Source: Lachnospiraceae bacterium
GTDB lineage: Bacteria; Bacillota; Clostridia; Lachnospirales; Lachnospiraceae
Reading direction: 5' to 3'
Assembly (NCBI GenBank): GCA_017482205.1
Contig: JAFUNK010000024.1
Location: 239,861 to 303,860 of the forward strand
DNA length: 64,000 nucleotides
The notes below the pieces were generated by a model. The model worked only from the letters and a program-made list of their open reading frames with translations. It searched no databases and had not been told where the DNA came from. Shown here piece by piece: positions 3,960 to 55,408 of the stretch; within the stretch, counting starts at the first letter, position 1, and every line of letters starts with the position of its first letter. Made by a program: the position numbers and the translations under genes.

Positions 3960-5666
3960 GTGCTGAAGAAAAAGAATTTTTTTGTTGCGATGTTAATAAC
4001 ATTTTTAATTACTTTTATGTGGTTGGTTTTTGGACCTGCAGAAATCTTTTTTGCAAATGTGACAGAGTTTGATTTTATATACGGTGAATTTTTCTGGCAC
4101 ATGGCAGTGATTACTATTGTCGTAACGCTTGTAGTATCTTTACTGGTGCTGATTTTACCCGAAAAAGTTTCGAGAGCTTTGTTGTCGGTCATGTTTGCAC
4201 TTGCCGTAATGAGTTATATTCAGGTGATGTTTTTTAACCAAAAGCTGGACCTTTTGGGAGAAAGTGCGGAAGGATATGAATTGCAGACCGGTAAAGCGGT
4301 TTTCAATCTGATTATATGGATTGTGATTTGTCTGGCGGTTATTGTATTGGCGTATCTTAAAAAAGATATCTGGAAAAAACTTGTGCTGGGAGCATCCGGA
4401 TTTTTGCTTGCGATTCAGGCCGTGGCATATGTTTCCCTTCTCTTGACCGCAGATGAGGAAGCGTACAAGCGTCCGGACGGATTTTGGATGCTGTCGGGAG
4501 AAGAACAATATGTGGTTTCAGGGGAAGAAAATATTATTATTTTTGTCTTAGACTGCTTTAATAACCAATATGTAGATATCATGAATGAAGCATATCCGGG
4601 ATCAACGGACTTCCTGCATGATTTTACCTATTATAACAATGCGGATTGTACCTATTATGGAACATTTCCATCCCTGCCGCATATGTTGACCGGCTGTGAA
4701 GTGAGGGAGGATATGACGGTAAATGATTGGTGCAGTTGGATATGGGACAATGAAAAAACGAACAGTTTTTACGAGGGTTTACAGACCAATAACTATATCA
4801 CGAATATTTATACTGCAGATGCACAGGTTTTGGTGGGGACGAACCCCAAAGGGATTCTTAGCGGTAAGATTAACAATGCAGTGAATTCCTCCGCAGAGAT
4901 GGAAGTGGACTATGAATTGTTAATTCAGACTTTGATGAAAATGTCCGGATATCGGTTAGTGCCCGACCTGTTCAAAGGATATCTGTATACGGATATTGAT
5001 GAATATGAAAGTATTGTGCGTTTAAAAGAAAATCCTATCAATTACAATAACTATGATTATTATGAGAGATTGGTAGAGCAAAAATTATCTATAAATGAAG
5101 AACATAATTATTTTATTGTGGAGCATTTAGTGGGAACGCACAGTTATTCCACAGACGAGTTTGGACATTATAGCGAAGATGCGGTGCTGGCGGATACTGC
5201 AAAGGGCTGTATGGTAATTGTGGAGGAATATCTGAACCAGTTAAAGGAACTGGGAGTTTATGACAATTCAACCATCATAATTACCTCAGATCATGGTGTG
5301 GAGGATGAATCTCAGGTGATCTTCTTTGTGAAGCAACCGGGAGAGAGCCATGAGGAATCACCGATAACCAGTGCACCTATTGCACATACAGAACTTCTGC
5401 CTACGATAGCACAGGCAGCAGGTATGAATCCCGGTGAATATGGTCAGACCATCTATGATTTTGGGGACGGAGAAGAAAGAGAGCGAACCGTTTGGGTAAG
5501 AACTTTTGATGATGCTTATCCGTCCGTACCCTGTTATACGGGGGATAAAGAGGGAAGTTCCAATGTATATTACGGATATAGTTATGTTGGTAACCTGCAG
5601 GATTTACTGGAACAAATCGGTTCCGGTCCCGCCCAGATTATGGAAATGAAAGATTCTCATTATTAA
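3960..5666 (+). CDS. membrane-anchored sulfatase/LtaS-fold transferase or hydrolase
   Basis: A 568-residue protein of the alkaline-phosphatase superfamily (sulfatase, phosphoglycerol transferase and phosphoethanolamine transferase fold). About four transmembrane helices lie at 8-30, 47-66, 72-92 and 115-133, with another hydrophobic stretch at 141-162, followed by an external catalytic domain. Candidate active-site residues are D198 ('FVLDCF'), T235 in 'GTFPSLPHMLTG' at the nucleophile position, H394 and the 'TSDHG' motif with D444-H445. It starts with GTG at 3960 behind a perfect GGAGG seven bases upstream. It precedes the small YIDP-type protein and the YidC-TagF-like fusion, and this trio looks like an anionic-polymer or headgroup-transfer unit. 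AEP or glycerol phosphate are possible cargoes; the sequence does not decide. Confidence 0.8.
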   Translation: MLKKKNFFVAMLITFLITFMWLVFGPAEIFFANVTEFDFIYGEFFWHMAVITIVVTLVVSLLVLILPEKVSRALLSVMFALAVMSYIQVMFFNQKLDLLGESAEGYELQTGKAVFNLIIWIVICLAVIVLAYLKKDIWKKLVLGASGFLLAIQAVAYVSLLLTADEEAYKRPDGFWMLSGEEQYVVSGEENIIIFVLDCFNNQYVDIMNEAYPGSTDFLHDFTYYNNADCTYYGTFPSLPHMLTGCEVREDMTVNDWCSWIWDNEKTNSFYEGLQTNNYITNIYTADAQVLVGTNPKGILSGKINNAVNSSAEMEVDYELLIQTLMKMSGYRLVPDLFKGYLYTDIDEYESIVRLKENPINYNNYDYYERLVEQKLSINEEHNYFIVEHLVGTHSYSTDEFGHYSEDAVLADTAKGCMVIVEEYLNQLKELGVYDNSTIIITSDHGVEDESQVIFFVKQPGESHEESPITSAPIAHTELLPTIAQAAGMNPGEYGQTIYDFGDGEERERTVWVRTFDDAYPSVPCYTGDKEGSSNVYYGYSYVGNLQDLLEQIGSGPAQIMEMKDSHY

Positions 5667-5746
5667 ATACGACAGAGGATTAAAATCAAGTAACTTTTGG
5701 AGATATTATATAAAAATACAATTTTTATTAAAGGAGATAAATTGCT

Positions 5747-6004
5747 ATGAGAAAAATTATTGGTTGGACATTTTCGTTTTTGTATTTCTTTTCCTGTTTC
5801 TTTATGTTGTTTTCTGTTCCGGTGCATGCGTATATTGACCCTTCAGCAGTAACATACATTATTCAGGGTGTTGCAGGTGTGTTGATTGCCTTGGGAGCAG
5901 CTTTTGCAATCTTCCGTCACAAAATAGCAGCTCTGTTTAAAAAGAAGAAGACCGAAGAGGAAGAAGAAAATAAGATTGAATTTAAGGATGTAGAAGAAGA
6001 GTAA
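5747..6004 (+). CDS. small membrane protein with signal sequence and acidic tail
   Basis: An 85-residue protein: a hydrophobic signal segment (residues 4-28, ending VHA), then 'YIDPSAVTYIIQGVAG', a transmembrane helix at about 33-53, a basic stop (FRHKIAALFKKKK) and a very acidic tail (EEEEENKIEFKDVEEE). Small YIDP proteins of this kind are often found beside sulfatase-fold transferases in Gram-positive polysaccharide loci. They have no assigned activity that I know of. The start has a clear AAGGAG. It ends 10 bases before the YidC-TagF-like fusion, suggesting one transcript and possibly one membrane complex. Confidence 0.75.
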   Translation: MRKIIGWTFSFLYFFSCFFMLFSVPVHAYIDPSAVTYIIQGVAGVLIALGAAFAIFRHKIAALFKKKKTEEEEENKIEFKDVEEE

Positions 6005-6013
6005 GAGGAAAAT

Positions 6014-7882
6014 ATGAGTGCGATTATGAATGCCATAGTTGATGGGCTGGTCTGGCTGATTAACGGTTGTTATGCAGTGTGCCATAATTACTGGATAGCG
6101 ATTTTGATTTTTACATTTTTGACAAAAGTGATTTTACTGCCACTGTCTGTATGGGTACAGAAGAATTCTATCAAAACTGTACGGATGCAGCCTGAAATCA
6201 ATCGGATTAAGGCGAAGTACTGGGGGAATAATGATAAAATTTCAGAGGAGCAGTACAAATTATTTAAAAGAGAAAAATACAGTCCTTTTGTGGATTTGAT
6301 TCCGTTATTTGTACAACTTGCTCTTTTGATGGGTGTTGTAGAGGCTGTAAAAAAGGGCACCGATTTGACAGCAGTTCCTATTGAGGTTTTGGGAATTACG
6401 CTTCTGGTGCCGGTTATTGCGGCTTTATCAGCTTTTTTTATGTGTTATGTGCAGAATAAGATAAATGTATTGCAGGCAGAGCAGGGGGCATTTAACAAGT
6501 ACGGTACTCTGATATTTTCTGTGGCATTATCTTTGTATCTGGGCTTTTTTGTATCAATAGGAGTTGGTGTATATTGGATATACAGCAATGTCCTTTCAGT
6601 AGTACAGCTTGTCCTTTTGAATATTTGGATTAATCCCAAAAAGTATATTGATTATGAGGCATTAGAGGCAAGTAAAGAAGAACTAAAAAAAGCCAAACAG
6701 TTTATGACTCCTAAGAAAAAGGAAGAGCGCAGTAAAGAGTGCCGCAAGAAGGAGAAAGAAGATTACAAGAAATTTCTTTCAGGACCGAAGAAACGGTTGG
6801 TATTTTACTCCGAGAGAAATGGTTTTTATAAATACTACAAAAACATTATCGAGGAAATTATCCGTCGGACCAATATTGTAGTGCATTATATTACCAGTGA
6901 CCCGGAAGATGCGGTTTTTGCTTTGGAAAGTGAACAGTTTAAGCCCTATTATATCGGCGACAACAAGATGATTGTTCTTATGATGAAAATGGAAACGGAT
7001 ATCATGGTCATGACGACCCCCGACCTGGAGAATTTTCAGCTTAAGCGTTCCTATGTTAAAAAAGATATAGAATATATATATGTGCCGCATGATGTAAACA
7101 GTTCGAATCTGACTTTCCACAAAAATGCGCTGGATCATTTTGATACGATATTTGCTTCCGGCTACAAGAATAAAGAGGAAATTCAGGAGAGAGAAAAGCA
7201 GTATAATCTTCCTGCCAAAAATATTGTGGAATGGGGATCCTGTGTAATTGATGATATGACAGAAGCTTATGCTAAAATGCAGGAGGAAGAACAGCAGGTA
7301 CAGGATAAAAAGACTATATTGATAGCACCTTCATGGCAGAAGGACAATATTATGGACTCCTGTATTGAAAATTTGCTGGATTCTTTAAAAGGACTGAATT
7401 ATCGGATTGTTGTACGTCCACATCCACAGTATGTCCGCCATTTTGAGGCAAGAATAGACTCCTTGATACAAAAATACGGACCGGGCGTGGAGATACAGAA
7501 AGATTTTTCTTCCAACCGTACGGTATACATGGCAGATTTACTGGTGACGGACTGGTCCAGTATTGCTTTTGAGTATGCATTTTCTACCTTGAAGCCGGTA
7601 TTGTTTATCAATACCCCTATGAAGGTTGTCAATGAAGATTACAAGGAATTGAAAACAGTCCCCATTGATATTGAACTCAGGGATAAAGTGGGTATTTCAA
7701 TAGAAGAAGATGAAACAGCGAAATTACCTGAAGCGGTGGAAGAACTTTTGTATGCAGAGAAGTTTTCCAAAGAGGCTATGAAGCAGCTGCGGGATTCTTA
7801 TATTTATAATGTGGGTAACAGTGGAAAAATCGGTGCGAAGTATATTATACAGAGACTGGTTGAAAAAACACATAAAAAATAA
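6014..7882 (+). CDS. fusion of YidC/Oxa1-like insertase domain with CDP-glycerol glycerophosphotransferase-like domain
   Basis: A 622-residue two-part protein. Residues 1-205 are YidC2/Oxa1-like: a helix near 25-46, a cytoplasmic hairpin with 'MQPEINRIKAKYW' (58-70), and helices near 93-112, 125-147, 164-186 and 188-206. At the place of the conserved groove arginine ('LIRLLILP' in Bacillus SpoIIIJ) this protein has Lys38 ('LTKVILLP'). A charged linker (210-255) leads to residues 258-622, which resemble TagF/TarF enzymes that move alditol phosphate from a CDP donor: 'YVPHDVNSSN' near 357-365, 'RPHP' at 468-471 and 'VTDWSSIAFEYAF' at 511-523. The reading frame is continuous, so the fusion is real in this sequence. 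It follows the small membrane protein and precedes the phosphonate genes. The acceptor and donor are unknown. Confidence 0.85.
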   Translation: MSAIMNAIVDGLVWLINGCYAVCHNYWIAILIFTFLTKVILLPLSVWVQKNSIKTVRMQPEINRIKAKYWGNNDKISEEQYKLFKREKYSPFVDLIPLFVQLALLMGVVEAVKKGTDLTAVPIEVLGITLLVPVIAALSAFFMCYVQNKINVLQAEQGAFNKYGTLIFSVALSLYLGFFVSIGVGVYWIYSNVLSVVQLVLLNIWINPKKYIDYEALEASKEELKKAKQFMTPKKKEERSKECRKKEKEDYKKFLSGPKKRLVFYSERNGFYKYYKNIIEEIIRRTNIVVHYITSDPEDAVFALESEQFKPYYIGDNKMIVLMMKMETDIMVMTTPDLENFQLKRSYVKKDIEYIYVPHDVNSSNLTFHKNALDHFDTIFASGYKNKEEIQEREKQYNLPAKNIVEWGSCVIDDMTEAYAKMQEEEQQVQDKKTILIAPSWQKDNIMDSCIENLLDSLKGLNYRIVVRPHPQYVRHFEARIDSLIQKYGPGVEIQKDFSSNRTVYMADLLVTDWSSIAFEYAFSTLKPVLFINTPMKVVNEDYKELKTVPIDIELRDKVGISIEEDETAKLPEAVEELLYAEKFSKEAMKQLRDSYIYNVGNSGKIGAKYIIQRLVEKTHKK

Positions 7883-7897
7883 AAAGGTGATTGGAAA

Positions 7898-9019
7898 ATG
7901 GTGAAAAGAAACATTTTATTAAATCCGGGGCCGGCAACGACTACTGATACGGTAAAGATGGCCCAGATTGTACCGGATATTTGTCCCAGAGAGAAAGAAT
8001 TTGTGGGTATTATGCGTGAACTGGAAAGTGATCTGGTGAAGATTGTGCATGGTGACCCCGAAGTTTATACGGCAGTACTTTTCTGTGGTTCAGGAACGAT
8101 CAATATGGATATCTGCTTAAATTCTTTATTGCCGGAAAATAAAAAAATTCTTGTCATCAATAATGGGGCTTATAGTAGCAGAGCCGTGGAAATCTGCGAA
8201 TATTATCAGTTGCCTCACATCAATTTGCGCCTTCCGGTAGACAGACAGCCTGATCTGAAAGTGGTGGAAGAGGTATTGGAAAGTAATCCGGATATTGCCT
8301 TGGTATACACAACACACCATGAGACAGGAACAGGTCTTTTGAATCCGGTTAGGGAAATCGGTGCACTGGTACATAAATACCAGGCAGTATTTGTGGTGGA
8401 TACCACTTCTACCTATGCAATGCGTCCTATTCATATCGCAGAAGATAATATTGATTTTTGCATGGCTTCTGCGCAGAAGGGTATTATGGGAATGACAGGA
8501 CTTTCTTATATTGTCGGAAGAAAAGCTGTGATTGAAGCATCAGCAGCATATCCGAAGCGTTCCTACTATTGTAACTTATATTTACAGTATGATTACTTTA
8601 AACAGCATGGAGAAATGCATTTTACGCCGCCTGTACAGGTTATTTATGCGGCAAAACAGGCGTTAAAGGAATATTTTGCAGAGGGCGAACAGGCAAAGTG
8701 GGAAAGACATACCCGTGTCTTTTCAGCCATTCGTACCGGGTTGGAAAAACTGGGATTTCGGATTTTTATTTCCGAAGATATACAGGCGGGTCTGGTAGCG
8801 GCTGCACTTTATCCCAATGATCCTAACTGGGAATTTGAAAAAATCCATGATTATTGCTATGAAAGAGGCTTTACGATTTATCCGGGAAAAGTAGAAAAGA
8901 TGGGAATGTTCCGCCTGTGTGCTTTAGGAGCGATTGATGAGAAAGACATTCAGGACTTTTTCGTAGTGTTTGAGGAGGCATTAAGAACGTATGGCGTGAA
9001 GGTGCCGGTAGAGTACTAA
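7898..9019 (+). CDS. phnW: 2-aminoethylphosphonate:pyruvate aminotransferase (biosynthetic direction likely)
   Basis: A 373-residue PLP-dependent class-V-type aminotransferase. It interconverts phosphonoacetaldehyde and 2-aminoethylphosphonate. Visible signs: N-terminal 'LLNPGPATTT' as in PhnW, cofactor-phosphate loop 'CGSGTINMD' (63-71), Asp168 in 'VVDTTS' and the Schiff-base Lys194 in 'ASAQKGIMG'. Next to PEP mutase and phosphonopyruvate decarboxylase, it should run toward AEP synthesis rather than degradation. The start follows an AAAGGTG site. An alanine-glyoxylate-type transaminase of the same fold is the main alternative, but the neighbours argue against it. Confidence 0.9.
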   Translation: MVKRNILLNPGPATTTDTVKMAQIVPDICPREKEFVGIMRELESDLVKIVHGDPEVYTAVLFCGSGTINMDICLNSLLPENKKILVINNGAYSSRAVEICEYYQLPHINLRLPVDRQPDLKVVEEVLESNPDIALVYTTHHETGTGLLNPVREIGALVHKYQAVFVVDTTSTYAMRPIHIAEDNIDFCMASAQKGIMGMTGLSYIVGRKAVIEASAAYPKRSYYCNLYLQYDYFKQHGEMHFTPPVQVIYAAKQALKEYFAEGEQAKWERHTRVFSAIRTGLEKLGFRIFISEDIQAGLVAAALYPNDPNWEFEKIHDYCYERGFTIYPGKVEKMGMFRLCALGAIDEKDIQDFFVVFEEALRTYGVKVPVEY

Positions 9020-9045
9020 ATATTGACTGCAAAGGGGATATACGG

Positions 9046-10341
9046 ATGAAAAAAGTATATACATGCTTTTGTACAGATGTAATTCACGAAGGACATTTGA
9101 ATATATTACGGGAAGCCGCAAAATACGGAGAAGTTATTGTAGGAGTATTGGCAGATGCTGCCATGGTTCGTTTTAACCGTTTTCCTACTATTTCACTGGA
9201 GCAAAGAATAGAAATTGTAAAAGCTACAGGACTGGCAGCCGAAGTGCTGGTGCAGAAAGATGTTATGTACGATGATATTCTTGGTGAGATAAAGCCAGAC
9301 TATGTCATTCATGGGGATAACTGGAAAGAAGGTCCCGAAAAGGCAATCCGTGAGAATGTGATTAAAAATCTGGCGGAGTATGGCGGAACATTGTTGGAGA
9401 TACCGTATACTTACAATGAAGAAGTAAAAAAGATAGATGATCGCATGAAAGAGAAACTGGCAATGCCGGAGTTTCGTCGTAAACGTTTGCGCCAGTTACT
9501 TACCATGCGCCCCATTGTTAAGACATTGGAGGTGCATTCTGGTTTAACCGGACTGATTGCAGAGAAGACTATTGTAGAGAGCAATGGAGAACTTGACCAG
9601 TTTGACGCTATGTGGATATCCAGTCTTTGTGATTCCACGGCAAAAGGAAAACCGGATATAGAACTGGTGGACATGTCTTCACGTATTCGTACAATTGATG
9701 ATGTTATGGATGTGACGACCAAGCCCATTATTCTGGATGGGGATACGGGCGGACTGATAGAGCATTTTGTATACAATGTACGCACCTTGGAGAGAATGGG
9801 CGTTTCGGCTGTTATTATAGAGGACAAGACGGGACTGAAGAAAAACTCTCTGTTTGGAACGGAAGTAGAGCAGACTCAGGACAGCATAGAGAATTTTTCT
9901 GCAAAAATCCGTGCAGGAAAGCAGGCGTTGCGTACAGAAGAATTTATGATAATAGCCAGAATTGAAAGTCTGATTCTGGAAAGAGGCATGGAAGATGCAT
10001 TGCAGCGTGCTTTTGCCTATGTAGAAGCCGGTGCGGACGGCATTATGATTCATTCCCGAAAAAAAGAACCGGATGAAATTATAAAGTTTTGTGAAGAGTT
10101 CAGAAAGAAAGATAAGAACACTCCGATAGTAGTGGTTCCGACATCCTTCAACAGTATCACAGAAGAAGAACTGGCAGCCGCCGGAGTCAATATTGTTATT
10201 TATGCAAATCAGTTGACGAGAAGTGCATTTCCGGCTATGCAGGAGACAGCAGTAGAGATTTTAAAGAATCATCGTGCATTGGAAGCAGATTCCAGATTGA
10301 TGCCATTTAAGGATATTATACGTTTGATTGATGAACTGTAA
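9046..10341 (+). CDS. pepM: phosphoenolpyruvate mutase with N-terminal nucleotidyltransferase domain
   Basis: A 431-residue two-domain enzyme. Residues 1-135 are a cytidylyltransferase-like domain related to TagD and PCT, with HxGH at 14-17 ('HEGHLNIL'). Residues 150-431 are PEP mutase: 'DGDTGG' (231-236), the Mg-binding acidic cluster and the gating loop 'EDKTGLKKNSLFG' (259-271), whose EDK...KxNS pattern separates mutases from isocitrate-lyase-type lyases. It rearranges PEP to phosphonopyruvate, the first committed step of nearly all known phosphonates. Fused nucleotidyltransferase-PepM proteins are known from other polysaccharide loci, such as the AepX type in Bacteroides. The stop overlaps the start region of the next gene by a few bases. 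Confidence 0.93.
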   Translation: MKKVYTCFCTDVIHEGHLNILREAAKYGEVIVGVLADAAMVRFNRFPTISLEQRIEIVKATGLAAEVLVQKDVMYDDILGEIKPDYVIHGDNWKEGPEKAIRENVIKNLAEYGGTLLEIPYTYNEEVKKIDDRMKEKLAMPEFRRKRLRQLLTMRPIVKTLEVHSGLTGLIAEKTIVESNGELDQFDAMWISSLCDSTAKGKPDIELVDMSSRIRTIDDVMDVTTKPIILDGDTGGLIEHFVYNVRTLERMGVSAVIIEDKTGLKKNSLFGTEVEQTQDSIENFSAKIRAGKQALRTEEFMIIARIESLILERGMEDALQRAFAYVEAGADGIMIHSRKKEPDEIIKFCEEFRKKDKNTPIVVVPTSFNSITEEELAAAGVNIVIYANQLTRSAFPAMQETAVEILKNHRALEADSRLMPFKDIIRLIDEL

Positions 10342-10354
10342 TAAAGGTGATAAG

Positions 10355-11047
10355 ATGAAAGAAATAGCAATACTGATGGCAGCGGGTATGGGAACCAGAA
10401 TGAGACCATTAACAGAAAGTAAGCCCAAACCCCTCATTGCAGTGCATGGGAAGCCAATGATAGAAACAGTTATAGAAGGACTTTTGACAAGGCCGGTAGA
10501 AGAAATCTATGTTGTTACGGGATATTTGGCAGAACAGTTTGGATATCTGCCGGAGAAGTACCCGCAGGTAAAACTGATTTGTAATCAGGCATACAGCAGC
10601 AAAAACAATATTTCTTCTGTGTATGCGGCAAGAGAGTGCTTGGAACTAGGAAATTGCTTTATTTGTGAATCGGATTTGTATATTGCAGATCAGACAATTT
10701 TCCAGAAAAACTTACCTCATTCCTGTTATTATGGAAGGATGCAGGCAGGGCATTCTGAGGACTGGACATTTTTTGTGCAAGATGAGAGAATAGTCCGGGT
10801 AGGTAAGGGGGGCGATGATACCTACAATATGGTGGGCGTTGCTTATTTTAGACAGAAGGAAGCACTTACCTTAAAGGCAGAGATTGAAAAAGCATATGAA
10901 AACGAAGAAAACAGTCAATTGTTCTGGGACGAAGTAGTAAATAACAATCTGGACAAACTGCCTTTGGCGATTGAGCCGGTGGAGGATGGTCAGTTGGTAG
11001 AAATTGATACGGTGGAGGAGCTTAGAAGAGTGAATGAAAGCAATTGA
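10355..11047 (+). CDS. CTP:2-aminoethylphosphonate (or phosphocholine-type) cytidylyltransferase, PntC/LicC-like
   Basis: A 230-residue nucleotidyltransferase of the sugar-1-phosphate family: signature 'AAGMGTRMRPLTESKPKPL' (9-27), 'KNNISSVYAAR' and a C-terminal 'EIDTVEEL'. The short LicC-like form with this KNNISS stretch activates small head groups (phosphocholine or AEP) as CDP or CMP conjugates. Between PepM and phosphonopyruvate decarboxylase its most likely product is CMP-AEP. I choose the ATG at 10355 because AAAGGTG precedes it; an upstream in-frame ATG at 10328 lies inside pepM. It overlaps the next gene by 14 bases, so translation is probably coupled. Confidence 0.8.
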   Translation: MKEIAILMAAGMGTRMRPLTESKPKPLIAVHGKPMIETVIEGLLTRPVEEIYVVTGYLAEQFGYLPEKYPQVKLICNQAYSSKNNISSVYAARECLELGNCFICESDLYIADQTIFQKNLPHSCYYGRMQAGHSEDWTFFVQDERIVRVGKGGDDTYNMVGVAYFRQKEALTLKAEIEKAYENEENSQLFWDEVVNNNLDKLPLAIEPVEDGQLVEIDTVEELRRVNESN

Positions 11048-12167
11048 GTTACTGACACGGATAGAGAATATGGGGATTGAGGTAGTTGCAGGTGTACCGG
11101 ATTCTACCCTCAAACAGTTCTGTGATGGCTTGCAGTTGTATGAAGGAAAGTTCAGGCATTATGTGACCGCCAACGAAGGCGCGGCAGTAGGTGTGGCGGT
11201 AGGAACCTATTTGGCAAGCGGTAAGCCTGCATGCGTGTATATGCAGAATTCCGGTATCGGAAACATTGTAAATCCGTTGGTATCTTTGGCGAATAAGGAT
11301 GTATACGGTATCCCTATGTTGTTTATTGTAGGCTGGAGAGGTGAGCCGGGTATCAAGGATGAGCCCCAGCATGTTTTTCAGGGAAAAATCACCTGTAAAC
11401 TCTTTGATACGCTGGAGGTGCCTTATGCGGTGATAGATAAAGAAACAACCGTAGAGGAATTGGATACTATATTGAGAAGAGCAGAGGAAGCATTTTTACA
11501 AAATTGCCAGTTTGCCATTATTGTAAAAAAAGACACTTTTGCGGCGGATAAAAAATTTATCTGGGAAAACGGAAATGCACTGGTGCGTGAAGAAGTGCTG
11601 GGAGAATTGTTACAGGTACTTCCTTCCGATGCATGCATTGTTTCAACTACAGGCAAAATTTCCAGAGAATTATATGAGCAGAGTAACAAGCTCTGGGGCA
11701 ATCATGACTTGATGTTTATGACAGTTGGCGGCATGGGGCATGCCTCCATGATAGCGTTTGGTATTGCAGCACAGAAACCGGATAAAACGGTGGTTTGTAT
11801 TGATGGGGATGGAGCGGCTCTGATGCATATGGGAGCATTGCCGTTTTTGGCATCCCATGCGCCTGAGAATTTTGTGCATATCATAATCAATAATCAGGCA
11901 CATGAGTCCGTGGGCGCGATGCCTACTGACTGTCAGCAGACAAATTTTGCGGCAATGGCAAAGACTGCGGGATATACTTCGGCAGAGAGAATTACAGATA
12001 TGAACGGGGTAAAAGAACTGCGGAATAAGTTGAACTGTGTAGAAGGACCTGTGTTATTTGAAATTATGGTATCGCTGGATTCAAGACCGGATTTGTCAAG
12101 ACCTGCGGAAACCGCAAGAGAAAACAGAGAAGTTTTTATGAAAAAATTATCTCCCAAAGGTGAGTAA
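11034..12167 (+). CDS. ppd: phosphonopyruvate decarboxylase
   Basis: A 377-residue thiamine-diphosphate enzyme that decarboxylates phosphonopyruvate to phosphonoacetaldehyde, the exergonic step that pulls the unfavourable mutase reaction forward. N-terminal 'GVPDSTLKQF' and 'TANEGAAVGVAVG' carry the conserved Glu48 that activates the cofactor. The TPP/Mg motif GDG...NN is visible as 'GDGAALMHMG' near residue 257 and 'IINNQAHESVG'. The length matches single-chain AepY/Ppd enzymes rather than acetolactate synthases (about 560). It overlaps pntC upstream and ends directly against the next gene (TAA then ATG). Confidence 0.93.
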   Translation: MKAIELLTRIENMGIEVVAGVPDSTLKQFCDGLQLYEGKFRHYVTANEGAAVGVAVGTYLASGKPACVYMQNSGIGNIVNPLVSLANKDVYGIPMLFIVGWRGEPGIKDEPQHVFQGKITCKLFDTLEVPYAVIDKETTVEELDTILRRAEEAFLQNCQFAIIVKKDTFAADKKFIWENGNALVREEVLGELLQVLPSDACIVSTTGKISRELYEQSNKLWGNHDLMFMTVGGMGHASMIAFGIAAQKPDKTVVCIDGDGAALMHMGALPFLASHAPENFVHIIINNQAHESVGAMPTDCQQTNFAAMAKTAGYTSAERITDMNGVKELRNKLNCVEGPVLFEIMVSLDSRPDLSRPAETARENREVFMKKLSPKGE

Positions 12168-44068: not shown

Positions 44069-47000
44069 ATGAAAAAATTGTTTAACCGTGCAAAGAATTT
44101 CCGAGAGGAAGAAGAATTGCAGTGGGACGACTTAGATGATATGGGTGGCGAAGAATATTATGCCGATGAAGCAGAAGATGACGAAGAGTACTACGCCGAC
44201 GGCGCGGAGTATGAGGAAGAATACTATGCCGATGAAGAAGGCGAAGAGTATTACGCTGACGAGATAGAAAGTGACGAAGAGTACTATGCCGATGAAGAAG
44301 GCGAAGAGTATTACGCTGACGAGATAGAAAGCGACGAAGAATACTATGCCGATGAAGAAGGCGAAGAGTATTACGCTGACGAGGTAGAAGGCGACGAAGA
44401 ATACTATGCTGATGAAGAAGGCGAAGAGTATTACGCTGACGAGGTAGAAGGCGACGAAGAATACTATGCCGATGAAGAAGACGAAGAGTATTACGCTGAC
44501 GAGATAGAAGGCGACGAAGAATACTATGCTGATGAAGAAGAGGATGCCTACTACGCCGACGACGAGGAAGAAGACCTTTATTATGAAGAGGATTCCGACG
44601 ACGGAGATGTTATAGTACCGTGGAGTGCTAAAAAAGAGGACAATATTCTCAGTAGACTGTGGTTAAAATTAGTACATATGGAAACCATGGATAAAGTAAT
44701 GGTCTCCACGGGGATTCTGGTATTGGTGCTGGCGGTGATTACCTGCAGTGTTTTTGCAGGTGCCAATGTGATAAACAGAGAGGTGGCATCCTTCAATTCG
44801 TTGGGAGACCAGATTTTAAGCATCAATCTGATTGGCGAGCATGGTCTGACTGCAGTGGCGGATGCACAACTGGCAAGGCAGGAAGCAGCAGATGCCATTG
44901 AGCAGGAAGAAGAAAATACAGAATACAATGAGTCTGAGTACAGCAGGGAAGTTGTGGTAGCTTTGAATATGACTTCCGTAGAAAAGGACCTTAAAATTAA
45001 ATTCGTAAACCGCAAGACAAATAAGCTGATTGCAAATGTACCGTTTTCTGTTACGGTGGTAACACCGGATGGAGATGAAGAGGTCTGGACCGATGAGGAT
45101 ATGGACGGTATTATTTACAAGGCAGAAATTACACCCGGTGATTACAGGATTACGATGAATGCACTGGAGGATGAGAAGTACGAAGATTATATTATTCTGA
45201 CAGATACCCAGAAGGTAAATGTAAAGAAAGAAATTGCGTATGAGAAGATAGAGGTTGCCGATGAAATCAGGGATGAGTCGGAAATCGATGCGGAGGAAGA
45301 GGATACTAAGGAAAATGAACTGGAAATAGAATCCACATTGCAGGACACCGTAAGCTGGGTAGAATCTACGAAGACGGTTATCAGTTCAGTGTATACGGCA
45401 GTGCCGAAAACTTCTGTGGCAGATCCGCTGACTACGGCAAGAGGGATGTCTTTTATGAGAACGTCTTCCGTGTCGGACCCGAATGCAGCTACTCCGGCAC
45501 CTGAGATAACACCTACGCCTACGCCGGAGGTAACTCCTACACCTACGCCGGAAGTGACGCCCACGCCTACACCGGAGGTAACCCCTACGCCTACACCGGA
45601 AGTAACCCCTACTCCTACGCCGGAGGCATCAATAGCACCGGTATTAACGGGTGTGACATTGGATAAGACGGAACTGAGTCTGGAAAAAGATAAAACAGAA
45701 CAATTGGCAGCAACGGTAACACCGGCGGAAATAGAGTGTGAACTGGTATGGAGTTCTTCTGATGAAACGGTTGTTAAAGTAGATGAAAATGGAAAGGTAA
45801 CGGCTTTAAAGGCAGGTACGGCGACCATTACGGTTAAGGCAACTGCCGGAGAAACCACCGTAGAGGCAACGTGTAAGGTTACGGTAACAGAGGCGAAGGA
45901 GACTCGCACCCTTACATTAAGTGCTGAGAAATTATTGTTGACTACCGGCGGTGGTGCCAAGGATATTACCGTAACTATCGGTAATTCGGTGACCGGTGGA
46001 AGTGTGGCAGGAACGATTACGGCAAAAAGTGATAATGAGTCCGTGGCAACGGTTGTAGTAGGAACTACCACAAATGGTACGGCGAAAATTACCATTACGC
46101 CCAAGGGACTCGGTACGGCTGTTATTACGGTAGGAATTGACGGAGCAACCGGCTTGGAAAAGACCTGTACCGTAACCGTAGCAGCCAGAAGTATGACGAT
46201 GGCTACCACGACGGCAACCATTTTATCCGGCACAAATAAAGAAATACAGGCAGAGATTACCGGTACAGGCGGAGCGGTTACCGCAACATCTTCTAACACG
46301 GCAGTGGCAACAGCGACAGTGACTACTTCTACCGCAAATGGAAAGACTACCGCAAAGATTGTAATTAACGGTGTGGCTGCTGGTTCTGCCACAATTACCG
46401 TAAAATATGTAGAGAATGGTCTGGAACTGGTAAAAACCTGTACAGTTACGGTAAAGAGCAGCAGTAATAAGTTGGTCAGCAAGGACAACAAGCAGTTATA
46501 TGTATTGGTTTCTGAGGGCAATTACAGAGAAGCAACCTATGCGGATTATTATAATACAGCCATTACTACCTTTTATATAAAAACAGAGGGTGTGGTGAAG
46601 TATACCGGTTGGCAGACCTTGGACGGTAAGGTGTATTACTATGATGCCAGCGGTAAATATGTGACCGGTGAACAGGTTATTCAGGGAGCTAAATACAATT
46701 TTGCCAGTGATGGTTCTCTGGTGGTGGGAAGCGGTACTTTTGGTATCGATGTATCCAAGTGGAATACGGTTACCGACTGGAATGCGGTAAAGAATTCCGG
46801 CGTGAATTATGTTATTATCCGATGTGGTTACAGAGGCTCATCCACCGGTGCGTTGGTTGTAGACCCTAAGTTTGAACAATATATCGAAGGTGCTACGGCA
46901 GCAGGATTAAAGGTCGGTGTTTACTTCTTCTCACAGGCGGTGAATAACAGAGAAGCGGTGGAAGAAGCATCCATGGTGCTGGAATTGATAGAAGATTACA

Positions 47001-47326
47001 GAATTTCCTATCCGGTATATTTGGATGTGGAGTCTTCCGGCGGCCGTGCAGACGGTATCAGTGTGGCTACCAGAACAGAGGTGATTAAGACCTTCTGTGA
47101 AACCATTCAGAATGCAGGTTATACAGCAGGTGTGTATGCGAATAAGAACTGGCTGACCAATAAGATTGACGCGTCACAGCTTGGCAGATATAAAATCTGG
47201 CTGGCGCAGTATGCGGCAGAGCCCACTTACAGCGGCAGATATGATATGTGGCAGTATTCTGAAAGCGGCAAGGTAACCGGCATTAAGGGAAATGTAGACT
47301 TAAATATCAGTTATCTGGGCTACTGA
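44069..47326 (+). CDS. large membrane-anchored GH25 muramidase with Tyr-acidic repeats and Ig-like domains
   Basis: A 1085-residue protein. In order: an N-terminal cytoplasmic tail whose residues 28-165 hold 14 copies of YYAD in a 10-residue, strongly acidic repeat; one transmembrane helix at about 213-235 (no cleavable signal and no LPXTG); a SpaA-like segment beginning 'SVEKDLKIKFVNRKTNK'; a Thr-Pro-Glu linker (TPTPEV repeats); a Big_2 domain ('GVTLDKTELSLEKDKTEQL') plus two more Ig-like units; a cell-wall-binding-type repeat ('GWQTLDGKVYYYDASGKY'); and a GH25 lysozyme domain from about 893 ('GIDVSKWN', catalytic 'YLDVES', 'DMWQYSESG'). It should cut peptidoglycan outside the membrane while displaying the tail inside. 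It is paralogous to the protein at 54149. Confidence 0.9.
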   Translation: MKKLFNRAKNFREEEELQWDDLDDMGGEEYYADEAEDDEEYYADGAEYEEEYYADEEGEEYYADEIESDEEYYADEEGEEYYADEIESDEEYYADEEGEEYYADEVEGDEEYYADEEGEEYYADEVEGDEEYYADEEDEEYYADEIEGDEEYYADEEEDAYYADDEEEDLYYEEDSDDGDVIVPWSAKKEDNILSRLWLKLVHMETMDKVMVSTGILVLVLAVITCSVFAGANVINREVASFNSLGDQILSINLIGEHGLTAVADAQLARQEAADAIEQEEENTEYNESEYSREVVVALNMTSVEKDLKIKFVNRKTNKLIANVPFSVTVVTPDGDEEVWTDEDMDGIIYKAEITPGDYRITMNALEDEKYEDYIILTDTQKVNVKKEIAYEKIEVADEIRDESEIDAEEEDTKENELEIESTLQDTVSWVESTKTVISSVYTAVPKTSVADPLTTARGMSFMRTSSVSDPNAATPAPEITPTPTPEVTPTPTPEVTPTPTPEVTPTPTPEVTPTPTPEASIAPVLTGVTLDKTELSLEKDKTEQLAATVTPAEIECELVWSSSDETVVKVDENGKVTALKAGTATITVKATAGETTVEATCKVTVTEAKETRTLTLSAEKLLLTTGGGAKDITVTIGNSVTGGSVAGTITAKSDNESVATVVVGTTTNGTAKITITPKGLGTAVITVGIDGATGLEKTCTVTVAARSMTMATTTATILSGTNKEIQAEITGTGGAVTATSSNTAVATATVTTSTANGKTTAKIVINGVAAGSATITVKYVENGLELVKTCTVTVKSSSNKLVSKDNKQLYVLVSEGNYREATYADYYNTAITTFYIKTEGVVKYTGWQTLDGKVYYYDASGKYVTGEQVIQGAKYNFASDGSLVVGSGTFGIDVSKWNTVTDWNAVKNSGVNYVIIRCGYRGSSTGALVVDPKFEQYIEGATAAGLKVGVYFFSQAVNNREAVEEASMVLELIEDYRISYPVYLDVESSGGRADGISVATRTEVIKTFCETIQNAGYTAGVYANKNWLTNKIDASQLGRYKIWLAQYAAEPTYSGRYDMWQYSESGKVTGIKGNVDLNISYLGY
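44221..44520 (+). repeat. five 60-bp tandem repeats inside the GH25 gene
   Basis: Five nearly identical 60-base units, with further partial units on both sides, each encoding two YYAD blocks (20 residues). Copies differ mainly at third positions and at GAA/GTA and AGC/GGC changes, so the array has expanded recently and may vary in length between strains. It is coding throughout and stays in frame. Confidence 0.9.
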
Positions 47327-53289: not shown

Positions 53290-54159
53290 ATGAAGGGAAT
53301 TATTTTGGCCGGAGGCTCCGGCACCAGACTGTATCCGTTGACTAAGGCAATTTCTAAGCAGATTATGCCGGTTTACGACAAGCCTATGATTTATTATCCG
53401 CTGTCTACGCTGATGTTGGCAGGTATCAGGGAAGTGCTGATTATTTCTACTCCCAGAGATTTGCCGGTATTTGAAGAACTTTTAGGAGATGGCAGCCAGC
53501 TTGGTATGAAGTTTTCTTATGCAGTACAGGAGCAGCCCAGAGGACTGGCAGATGCGTTTATTATTGGGGAAGAGTTTATCGGTAATGACAGAGTGGCACT
53601 GGTGCTGGGAGACAATATTTTCTATGGTCAGAGCTTTTCAAAGCTTTTACGTGAAGTGGCATCCAGAGAAAAGGGAGCGACTATTTTCGGCTATTATGTA
53701 AGAGACCCCAGAGAATACGGTGTAGTAGAGTTTGATGAAAACGGAAAGGCTCTTTCCATTGAAGAAAAGCCCGAACATCCCAAGAGCAATTATGCAGTGC
53801 CGGGGCTGTATTTCTATGATAATGATGTAGTAGAAATTGCTAAAAATGTAAAGCCTTCCGCAAGAGGGGAAATTGAAATTACCAGTATCAACAATGAATA
53901 CTTAAACAGAGGCACACTCAGGGTAGAAACCATGGGCAGAGGCTTTGCATGGCTGGATACCGGTAACCATGATGCACTGCTTGATGCAGCAGACTTTGTG
54001 GCAGCGTTCCAGAAGAGACAGGGACTTTATGTTTCCTGTATTGAAGAGATTGCGTATAAGAGAGGCTTTATTACAAAGGAACAGCTTTTGGCATTGGCTG
54101 AACCGTTGATGAAGACCAATTACGGTAAATATTTGGTAGAGGTTGCGAATGGACTCTAA
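53290..54159 (+). CDS. rfbA: glucose-1-phosphate thymidylyltransferase
   Basis: A 289-residue enzyme forming dTDP-glucose. '[20 protein letters not shown]' (3-22), '[19 protein letters not shown]', '[17 protein letters not shown]', 'LGDNIFYG' and '[17 protein letters not shown]' are textbook RmlA. It uses glucose-1-phosphate, probably from the mutase at 60630, and feeds RfbB (47443). The 5' region carries a structured element that may affect its expression. Its last 11 bases overlap the following GH25 gene. Confidence 0.97.
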
Positions 54160-55408
54160 ATTAAAGCGGTTGACAATTCTGGCAGCCTGTTCCGTACTGG
54201 TATTGGTGGCGTTGGTAGTGGTGCTGTTAAACGGTGGTATAGACACCGGACGTCCGGGTATGGCGACGATAACACCTTCGCCCACTCCTGCACAGAGTGA
54301 CGGTATGATATACCAGAATGGGCAGATTGGAAATGATTTGTCAGCTTTTTTGGAAGATAATACTTTTTTTGACCCGGAAAGAAATGAATTTCTGGAAGAT
54401 TTGCAGGCAGAGCAGAACAGACTGTCTCTGATAGTCACTTCCATAGAGAAGGACTTGCGTATCCAGATTGTGGACAAGGATAACAACCCGGTTATGGGAG
54501 AGAGCTTTTTTGTAACGCTTTCCGATATAGGGGAGTACAAAGACCTGGATAAGGACGGTATTATTTATATCGGGGATTTGCCTGCAGGTGAATATACGGT
54601 TTCCTTAAAGCCAATAGAAGGGTATAATGTACCTTCCGGCGGCACAAGGGTATTGGTAAAAGAAAAAGTAGAATATGTGGTTATCAATGACATTTCACTG
54701 CTGATGAAGACGGAAGCTGATATTGATGCACTGGCAGAGGATACTGCGCAAGTTGTGGAAGACGGTGACCGGACGGAAATTAAAGGGGCACAGACCCTGA
54801 CCGGCAATGCTGTTATGGGTATTGATGTGTCCAAGTGGCAGGGAGAAATTGACTGGGACAAGGTAAAGAACGACGGCGTGGAATTTGTTATTATCCGTTG
54901 CGGATACAGAGGTTCTTCTACCGGTGCATTGGTTGTGGACCCGTATTTTGAGCAGAATATCAGAGGTGCTACAGCAGCAGGACTGGATGTGGGTGTATAT
55001 TTCTTTACCCAGGCCATCAATCAGGTGGAAGCGGTGGAAGAAGCCAGTATGGTGGTGCAACTGATAGAGGAATATGACCTGACTTATCCGGTGTTTATTG
55101 ATACGGAGGGAGCAGGCGGAGACGGACGCGCTGACGGACTGGATGTGGAAACCAGAACATTGGTCTGCGAGGCATTCTGTACTACCGTAAAAAATGCAGG
55201 CTATGAGGCAGGTGTATATGCCAGCCGTAATTGGTACAATAACAAGGTGGATGCGGATACATTGGACAAATTTGTTATCTGGCTTGCGGAATACCGTAGT
55301 GTACCGTTGTATCAGGGATATTACAATATGTGGCAGTATACCTCCAAGGGTAGTATCGACGGTATTGAAGGAAATGTAGATTTGAATATCAGTTATTTAG
55401 GTTATTAG
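54149..55408 (+). CDS. membrane-anchored GH25 muramidase, smaller paralogue
   Basis: A 419-residue protein: N-terminal anchor helix (about 7-27), a short Pro/Thr spacer, a SpaA-like segment ('[18 protein letters not shown]') and a C-terminal GH25 domain from about 220 ('[17 protein letters not shown]', '[18 protein letters not shown]', catalytic 'FIDTEGAGG', 'MWQYTSKGS'). It matches the protein at 44069 over both segments but lacks the acidic repeats, Ig-like domains and wall-binding repeat. The ATG at 54149 lies in the end of rfbA with GAGG upstream. Coupling to rfbA suggests wall cutting is coordinated with polymer synthesis. Confidence 0.9.

Follow-up and report, generated by a model that had tools for sequence, protein, structure and literature searches.

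A 64,000-nucleotide stretch of a Lachnospiraceae bacterium contig (JAFUNK010000024.1, positions 239,861 to 303,860; hereafter, the window) contains, at positions 6014-7882, an open reading frame (ORF) that joins a domain of the YidC/Oxa1 insertase family to a domain resembling TagF, a cytidine diphosphate (CDP)-glycerol phosphotransferase. The features of this fusion gene are listed below.

6014..7882, + strand: YidC-TagF fusion protein, 622 amino acids; one ORF, 0 internal stops
6089..6622, + strand: YidC/Oxa1-like domain, residues 26-203 (PF02096, 4.5e-29; alignment to YidC structures)
6125-6127, + strand: groove residue Lys38 of the YidC-like domain (Lys in 20 and Arg in 1 of 21 sampled fusions)
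6758..7879, + strand: TagF-like transferase domain, about residues 249-622 (PF04464, 5.6e-15; motif comparison)
7088-7090, 7091-7093 and 7421-7423, + strand: His359, residue 360 and His470, respectively

The two halves of the fusion protein and their distribution

The initial annotation of the window described a single frame with a YidC-like N-terminal half, whose Lys38 would take the place of the groove arginine, and a TagF-like C-terminal half. All of this was borne out. The protein matched both Pfam families above their cut-offs: PF02096 (60KD_IMP) at residues 26-203 (102 bits against a cut-off of 35), covering profile positions 1-162 of 163, and PF04464 (Glyphos_transf) at residues 386-552 (55.6 bits against 22.1), a partial match to positions 142-308 of 367. 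NCBIfam YidC models also matched the first half, with scores under their cut-offs, and YidC entries were the only matches up to E 0.01 when this half was compared with solved structures. In a phmmer alignment, Lys38 falls on Arg366 of E. coli YidC (the residue number was counted from that alignment). Hydropathy alone predicts five core transmembrane (TM) segments (28-44, 93-109, 125-141, 166-182, and 186-202) and a sixth, weak one (7-23); the hairpin is 48 residues long and includes 11 Lys or Arg. YidC signature residues are strongly conserved across 57 fusions. The groove column is Lys or Arg in 21/21 fusions and in 29/30 separate YidC copies from the phylum, while it is mixed in the 13 separate copies of the host family (Tyr in 6, Arg in 3, Lys in 2, and Asn in 2).

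In the transferase half, the loss of the usual WHG motif and the presence of PHDVNSSN (residues 358-365) had also been pointed out. The motif is altered, with PHD standing where WHG is expected and both W and G replaced; nevertheless, both catalytic histidines, 359 and 470, are kept, and loss of WHG is therefore not loss of the first catalytic histidine. His359 aligns with the WHG histidine, and His470 with the second histidine, in 6/6 canonical PF04464 proteins (MAFFT), to which the transferase half is related with an hhalign probability of 97.5%. Pro439, Asp513, and Ser515 are also common to the two groups. Both histidines are present in 14/14 fusions and 9/9 sister TagF-like proteins (see below) that were compared, and together with Asp513 and Ser515 they are invariant across the 57 fusions. 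In TagF itself, H444 and H584 are known to matter (PMC5974469). A search of PDB with the transferase profile returned nothing at E 0.01 and one chance match (E 1.6) up to E 10.

Among the proteins compared, the closest relatives of the transferase half are those of a sister family, TagF-like proteins of ~420 residues that start with YIDPGTGSML (27% identity, hhalign E 3e-47). The one sister protein examined for this has a single predicted TM segment.

The fusion is present in 16 of 299 host-family genomes in a total of 19 copies, with relatives 70 to 43% identical; G283 carries four copies, and contig ends truncate the copies in G216 and G251. Since relatives with both halves recur in this way, the fusion is neither a chance product nor an assembly error. 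The sister TagF-like protein occurs in 14/299 genomes of the same survey. A scan of GTDB yielded at least 556 stretches encoding some relative; both halves were found in all of the best 80, which were kept, although the frame is broken in L130. By title, most are Lachnospiraceae; Oscillospiraceae and other Clostridia account for some, and a few are called simply "bacterium". A class-level draw (391 genomes) added the fusion protein in two further families, while in a phylum-level draw (398 genomes) four genomes outside the host family gave matches, to the transferase half in three and to YidC in the fourth, and no fusion was present among these four. Altogether, 95 fusion loci, the window included, were compared after the removal of duplicates L085, L110, L112, and L124; two further pairs with 97-98% identical transferase DNA remain among them. 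A decayed fusion was seen at L050:5519-7950 (G255), where a 109-residue ORF corresponding to the first part of the YidC half lies beside broken LtaS-like pieces.

A further PF02096 gene was found in 14/14 fusion genomes with a completeness of at least 90% and low contamination, as a single frame of 419-471 amino acids in 13 of them and as two pieces in G135. Because complete carriers also own a separate YidC, the YidC of the fusion is an accessory paralogue and not the housekeeping insertase. In the less complete genome of the window (74%) and in G251 (79%), the fusion is the sole PF02096 gene seen. A short YidC of G664 (L179) was set aside, as it resembles a housekeeping copy by its neighbours, as read from translations.

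Recurring membrane partners

Two genes for membrane proteins immediately precede the fusion gene in the window:

3960..5666, + strand: LtaS-like membrane phosphotransferase; 5 predicted TM segments followed by an alkaline-phosphatase-superfamily domain (PF01663, 3.6e-08; PF00884, 4.1e-06)
5747..6004, + strand: YIDP membrane protein, 85 amino acids; signal-peptide-like start, VHA followed by YIDPSAVTYIIQGVAG, one TM segment, and a charged tail

In an alignment of 32 LtaS-like proteins, D198, T235, H389, H394, D444, and H445 of the window protein are invariant; by analogy, we take these to be the threonine nucleophile and metal ligands. The best PDB matches of the LtaS-like profile are LtaS entries 2w5q and 2w5r, with 4uoo also among the matches. 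The NCBIfam lipoteichoic acid synthase model NF053595 scored the window protein at 15.3 bits, far under its cut-off of 970. An LtaS-like gene lies within 10 kb of the fusion in 59 of the 95 loci, in three of these in the same frame. When 12 fusion genomes were searched throughout, 11 of 23 LtaS-like places were within 10 kb of a fusion, compared with 0.21 expected, and 9 of 15 fusion copies were served by a nearby LtaS-like gene.

In the sister system, YidC is joined instead to an LtaS-like protein, and, by a manual comparison of coordinates, the gene for this YidC-LtaS protein has a separate TagF-like gene next to it at 14 of 16 places, both exceptions being in G004. Ten YidC-LtaS proteins from nine loci all matched PF02096 above its cut-off; the Pfam Sulfatase model was above its cut-off in five, weaker in four, and absent in one. 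Our own LtaS-like profile, built partly from this group, matched 10/10. All three domains also occur in a single open frame, in the order YidC-TagF-LtaS in L114 and LtaS-YidC-TagF in L126 and L137 (the L137 frame reaches the end of the locus, and its transferase was detected by our profile and not by Pfam). Hydropathy and Lys/Arg counts are in keeping with a TagF-like domain inside and an LtaS-like domain outside the membrane in every order, one YidC segment being below the hydropathy threshold in L126 and L137. The pattern suggests that YidC, TagF-like, and LtaS-like domains form a recurring machine in Clostridia. Outside the host family, L227 carries the fusion with both a YIDP and an LtaS-like gene.

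In a tree of 75 YidC domains, those of the fusions, of the YidC-LtaS proteins, of the family's separate copies, and of the phylum's separate copies each made up one side of a well-supported branch. The YidC-TagF and YidC-LtaS domains are on separate long branches, and a single origin of both is not rejected by the data (approximately unbiased (AU) test, p 0.488); by these sequences, YidC would have been recruited once or twice.

The ORF at 5747-6004, between the LtaS-like gene and the fusion, was absent from the initial annotation. A profile of its product matched 87 of the 95 fusion loci, always on the strand of the fusion and within 300 bases of it in 79. Because the profile was built from these loci, the 87/95 count is descriptive; the weight is carried by the tight spacing and by the control, in which the profile had 0 matches in 94 loci (693 kb; loci with pieces of the fusion were left out). 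The window protein belongs to no Pfam or NCBIfam family above cut-off. Among the YIDP proteins scanned, that of L034 just passes the Inovirus Coat protein B model (E 4.8e-05, 23.7 bits against a cut-off of 23.5), while the other seven scanned gave no match to it. The sister TagF-like proteins begin with a similar motif (hhalign 94.6%, versus 3.7% for a reversed control), although both sides were cut at YIDP, which favours a match. A signal peptidase S26 gene was noticed near 21 of the 95 fusions (for example, L035:8107-8733). This peptidase might act in processing of the YIDP protein, in which a small residue-x-Ala often directly precedes YIDP.

Donor genes and residue 360

Four genes directly downstream of the fusion correspond to a pathway for cytidine monophosphate (CMP)-activated 2-aminoethylphosphonate (AEP):

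7898..9019, + strand: 2-aminoethylphosphonate aminotransferase, PhnW/AepZ type (TIGR03301, 8.4e-136, above cut-off); starts 15 bases after the fusion gene
9046..10341, + strand: phosphoenolpyruvate mutase (pepM) with an N-terminal cytidylyltransferase-like domain (TIGR02320, 4e-125, above cut-off; PF01467, 4.6e-11)
10328..11047, + strand: PntC/LicC-type nucleotidyltransferase (PF12804, 1.7e-12, and PF00483, 2.6e-13, both above cut-off); match starts at 10355
11034..12167, + strand: phosphonopyruvate decarboxylase (ppd) (TIGR03297, 4.5e-133, above cut-off)

The set (phnW, pepM, the PntC-type gene, and ppd) lies within 4.3 kb, with gaps of -14 to 26 bases. The third gene is named PntC by its context and by the family described in PMC6697681, and its substrate is a prediction. 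In the family survey, pepM was above cut-off in 10 of 16 fusion genomes compared with 21 of the 283 genomes that lack the fusion (Fisher p 1.7e-7). When genomes with either the fusion or the sister protein are taken together, the count is 14 of 29, compared with 17 of 270 that have neither (p 2.2e-8).

Donor genes within 10 kb of fetched flank were classified for the 19 survey copies. Seven copies have the AEP set; one has a hydroxyethylphosphonate-type set (pepM, ppd, and a PsrA-like dehydrogenase); three have a cytidylyltransferase and a CobD-like decarboxylase joined in one protein (TIGR01140, below cut-off, was the best model for the two scanned with NCBIfam); one has a cytidylyltransferase-choline kinase; two have another cytidylyltransferase; and five have none. 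The CobD- and choline-kinase-type modules are predicted to make CDP-ethanolamine or CDP-choline. The initial annotation had raised the idea that the transferase uses CMP-AEP, a link that would fall if homologues were mostly without phosphonate genes. This refuting case holds by half: pepM lies near 8 of the 19 copies and somewhere in 10 of the 16 genomes. The link to AEP is supported as a co-occurrence, and AEP is not the sole donor indicated. Where each flank of the fusion extends for 8 kb or more (50 loci), 41 have pepM or a LicC/PntC-kind cytidylyltransferase, in a sample biased toward AEP; as the 80 GTDB loci were picked by likeness to an AEP-type query, the family survey gives the fairer picture of how common each donor type is. 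In L226, outside the host family, pepM, ppd, and a cytidylyltransferase lie some kb from the fusion, together with a YIDP ORF and a weak match to a dehydrogenase.

Other arrangements of donor-type genes were seen beside fusions. The four G283 copies (L041, L042, L043, and L044) each have different neighbours, among them a HisC-like aminotransferase, a cytidylyltransferase-choline kinase, cytidylyltransferases, and the hydroxyethylphosphonate-type set. At L033:10599-12422, L034:7884-9689, and L035:6214-8076, a LicC/PntC-like nucleotidyltransferase is joined to a CobD-like or aminotransferase-fold domain, and these joined proteins perhaps make CDP-ethanolamine or CDP-aminopropanol in a single polypeptide. 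At L045, L111, and L133, a cytidylyltransferase is accompanied by an aminotransferase that is either class-V (PhnW-like; in L045 below cut-off) or HisC-like, perhaps for yet another activated headgroup.

Residue 360, which adjoins the first catalytic histidine, had the highest mutual information with donor class of any position in the transferase domain, as determined for 61 fusion loci with an assigned module. It is not Gly in 44/44 phosphonate loci and is Gly in 16/17 phosphate loci, the sole exception being Trp in L042; before this count, L129 and L142 were reassigned by hand as CobD-type and L138 as hydroxyethylphosphonate-type. The Gly of WHG is present in most phosphate-type relatives and in many relatives without an assigned module. 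Among 26 loci of the latter kind, pepM was found elsewhere in the genome for 11 of 14 with non-Gly and 3 of 12 with Gly (p 0.016). The difference became weaker without the three loci whose phnW lies at a contig edge (8/11 versus 3/12, p 0.039) or with the addition of seven family-survey loci (11/14 versus 7/19, p 0.033), and related rows in these tables are not independent. A similar search for 13 CobD or choline-kinase loci found pepM in 1 genome. L226 fits the rule, with Tyr at this position and pepM beside the fusion. Residue 360 is a candidate donor-specificity residue within the fusion family, with few independent switches.

Elsewhere in the window, two large secreted-looking proteins (44069-47326 and 54143-55408) have similar C-terminal halves when their translations are compared by eye, the first with acidic EEYYADE repeats.

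Proposed function, alternatives, and relation to known systems

We consider it reasonably probable that the fusion is a CMP-AEP-using surface transferase, in which the YidC-like domain couples the TagF-like step to the LtaS-like enzyme outside. The cytosolic TagF-like domain would take AEP from CMP-AEP, the predicted product of the four downstream genes, and hand it to a membrane-borne acceptor; in relatives, the neighbouring genes would determine its donor, probably CMP-hydroxyethylphosphonate, CDP-ethanolamine, or CDP-choline. The YidC-like paralogue would be the membrane part that links this inside step to an outside step carried out by the LtaS-like transferase through its presumed threonine nucleophile, and the small YIDP protein would be a regular partner. 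The initial annotation had suggested that the insertase fold may have become a membrane platform or lipid-acceptor groove for polymer synthesis. The recurring partners favour a dedicated envelope machine over a lone enzyme, and the probable role of this machine is to attach small charged groups, AEP among them, to the cell surface.

Several observations weigh against parts of this proposal. No LtaS-like gene lies within 10 kb in 36 of the 95 fusion loci, and no donor module was detected by the thresholds used in 24 (short contigs are common in both cases); an LtaS-like match at E 1e-5 is missing altogether from two of the 12 genomes searched throughout, and 8 of the 95 loci have no match to the YIDP profile. 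The YidC-LtaS proteins carry Asn or Gln at the groove column in 11/11 cases and Lys or Arg in none. A locus of another family of the phylum, L178 (positions 4676-10464, G670), has an AEP operon and a standalone TagF-like protein 33% identical to the fusion half, as well as membrane proteins weakly like LtaS, and its 15 kb contain no YidC or YIDP match; YidC is therefore not indispensable to the chemistry. As to residue 360, the tree offers four independent pairs, of which three agree, none disagree, and one is equal (p 0.25), too few to reach significance. L122, which is outside the 44 phosphonate loci, has Gly360, with pepM and ppd ~5-6 kb away and no phnW or dehydrogenase. The rule was also tried in the sister family, where it fails: L186, with AEP genes, has Ala, like several choline-kinase loci.

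For the YidC-like domain, we favour a relay, which is the least certain step of the proposal. The transferase would attach AEP to a lipid in the inner leaflet, this lipid would cross, or be presented, by way of the YidC-like groove, and AEP would then be moved onto a surface glycan by the LtaS-like enzyme. This is judged the likeliest role of YidC because the transferase is predicted inside, the LtaS-like domain outside, and YidC is present in every fusion order. In its full form, the idea is that an Oxa1 fold has become a trans-bilayer relay part: the TagF-like domain would load AEP, phosphoethanolamine, phosphocholine, or hydroxyethylphosphonate onto a lipid, the LtaS-like enzyme would transfer it to glycans, and the YIDP protein would serve as a gate or guide. 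We put this forward tentatively, as a possibility. The article "Insertases Scramble Lipids" (PMC10462046) does not mention YidC, Oxa1, or EMC and is not used here as support.

The main rival to the relay is insertion of the YIDP protein. The YidC-like domain could be a dedicated insertase that inserts and holds this protein, and perhaps the LtaS-like protein, with the transferase merely tethered to it; the surface would still be decorated, but YidC would act on a protein rather than on a lipid. Small single-span membrane proteins are typical YidC clients, and a probable one is encoded within 300 bases of the fusion in 79/95 loci; the YidC signature is well kept, with the cytosolic hairpin and charged groove residue; and a weak match to inovirus coat protein B was obtained with the YIDP protein of L034, although not with the seven others scanned. 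Moreover, the YidC-YIDP pair is kept in both systems, since in the sister system YIDP heads the TagF-like protein and YidC is on the LtaS-like protein. However, insertion by itself leaves the fusion of YidC to an enzyme unexplained, complete genomes have a separate YidC anyway, and the groove charge is missing from the YidC-LtaS proteins. In addition, the YIDP gene is more than 1.5 kb from the fusion in L044, L102, L126, L137, and L138, and in L126 and L137 a same-frame LtaS part separates it from YidC. We regard a dedicated insertase as unlikely.

The YidC-like domain might also be a passive anchor that only tethers a soluble transferase to the membrane, with no role in transport or insertion, as the single predicted TM segment of the sister TagF-like protein examined and the lack of a YidC match in L178 would allow. 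That the YidC signature residues are so well conserved among 57 fusions speaks against mere tethering, as does the fact that the sister system also joined YidC to a partner, the LtaS-like protein, whether by one or two recruitments (AU p 0.488), and we think such an anchor rather improbable. Finally, membership in PF04464 would fit an ordinary TagF-type glycerophosphotransferase that uses CDP-glycerol and adjoins phosphonate genes by chance. The genome-level association with pepM (p 1.7e-7), the pepM or LicC/PntC-type cytidylyltransferase genes near 41 of 50 full-flank fusions, and the motif beside the catalytic histidine, which is altered in step with donor class within the fusion family, make this a very remote prospect.

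We found no description of the fusion in the open-access literature searched (subscription papers and protein databases were outside the search), and no account recognised as this system in open-access literature on CDP-ethanolamine with CobD, CMP-AEP, or phosphonoglycan. We know of no earlier Oxa1-family member that acts in lipid-linked headgroup transfer instead of protein insertion. If the relay is true, it would fill in the transferase step still lacking from the pathway of phosphonate tailoring in bacteria. The fusion is a concrete candidate for the transferase that acts after AEP activation in gut-type Clostridia, with a donor prediction at the level of a single residue (position 360), and it raises the question of whether the Oxa1 fold, known for protein insertion, has been adapted to lipid or glycan chemistry. 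With donor modules that can be exchanged, commensals may have a general means of varying the zwitterionic groups on their surface.

Each component of the proposed machine has a known counterpart. With TagF/TarF/TarL-like CDP-glycerol phosphotransferases (PF04464), the fusion shares the two catalytic histidines and the Asp and Ser of the C-terminal motif; it differs in lacking the W and G of WHG, in having Arg in place of the Lys two residues before the second histidine, in being fused to YidC, and in donor genes that point to CMP-AEP or CDP-aminoalcohols and not to CDP-glycerol. With YidC/Oxa1 insertases (PF02096; YidC2 of Gram-positive bacteria), it shares a full-length match and the charged groove residue, and hydropathy suggests a cytosolic hairpin and five core TM segments beside a sixth, weak one; it is an accessory paralogue with a C-terminal transferase of ~370 residues and a tree branch of its own. 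LtaS-type transferases of the alkaline phosphatase superfamily are the best PDB match of the neighbouring enzyme and have the invariant Thr and metal-ligand-type positions in common with it, whereas some relatives of the window gene are fused to YidC or YidC-TagF and the window protein is far below the NCBIfam cut-off. The pneumococcal Lic pathway (LicC/LicD) places phosphocholine on teichoic acid, and some fusion relatives with cytidylyltransferase-choline kinase genes would resemble it in using a cytidylyl-activated zwitterionic headgroup for surface polymers; the transferase of the fusion, in contrast, is TagF-like and membrane-fused. All four genes of the Pnt phosphonyl tailoring pathway (pepM, ppd, phnW, and pntC; PMC6697681) lie directly downstream of the fusion. 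The PntC paper (PMC6697681) terms the later tailoring steps enigmatic and places LicD-like phosphotransferases or glycosyltransferases near such genes, whereas here the neighbouring candidate is the YidC-TagF fusion. The enzyme domains come from known families, while their combination and the use made of YidC appear to be new.

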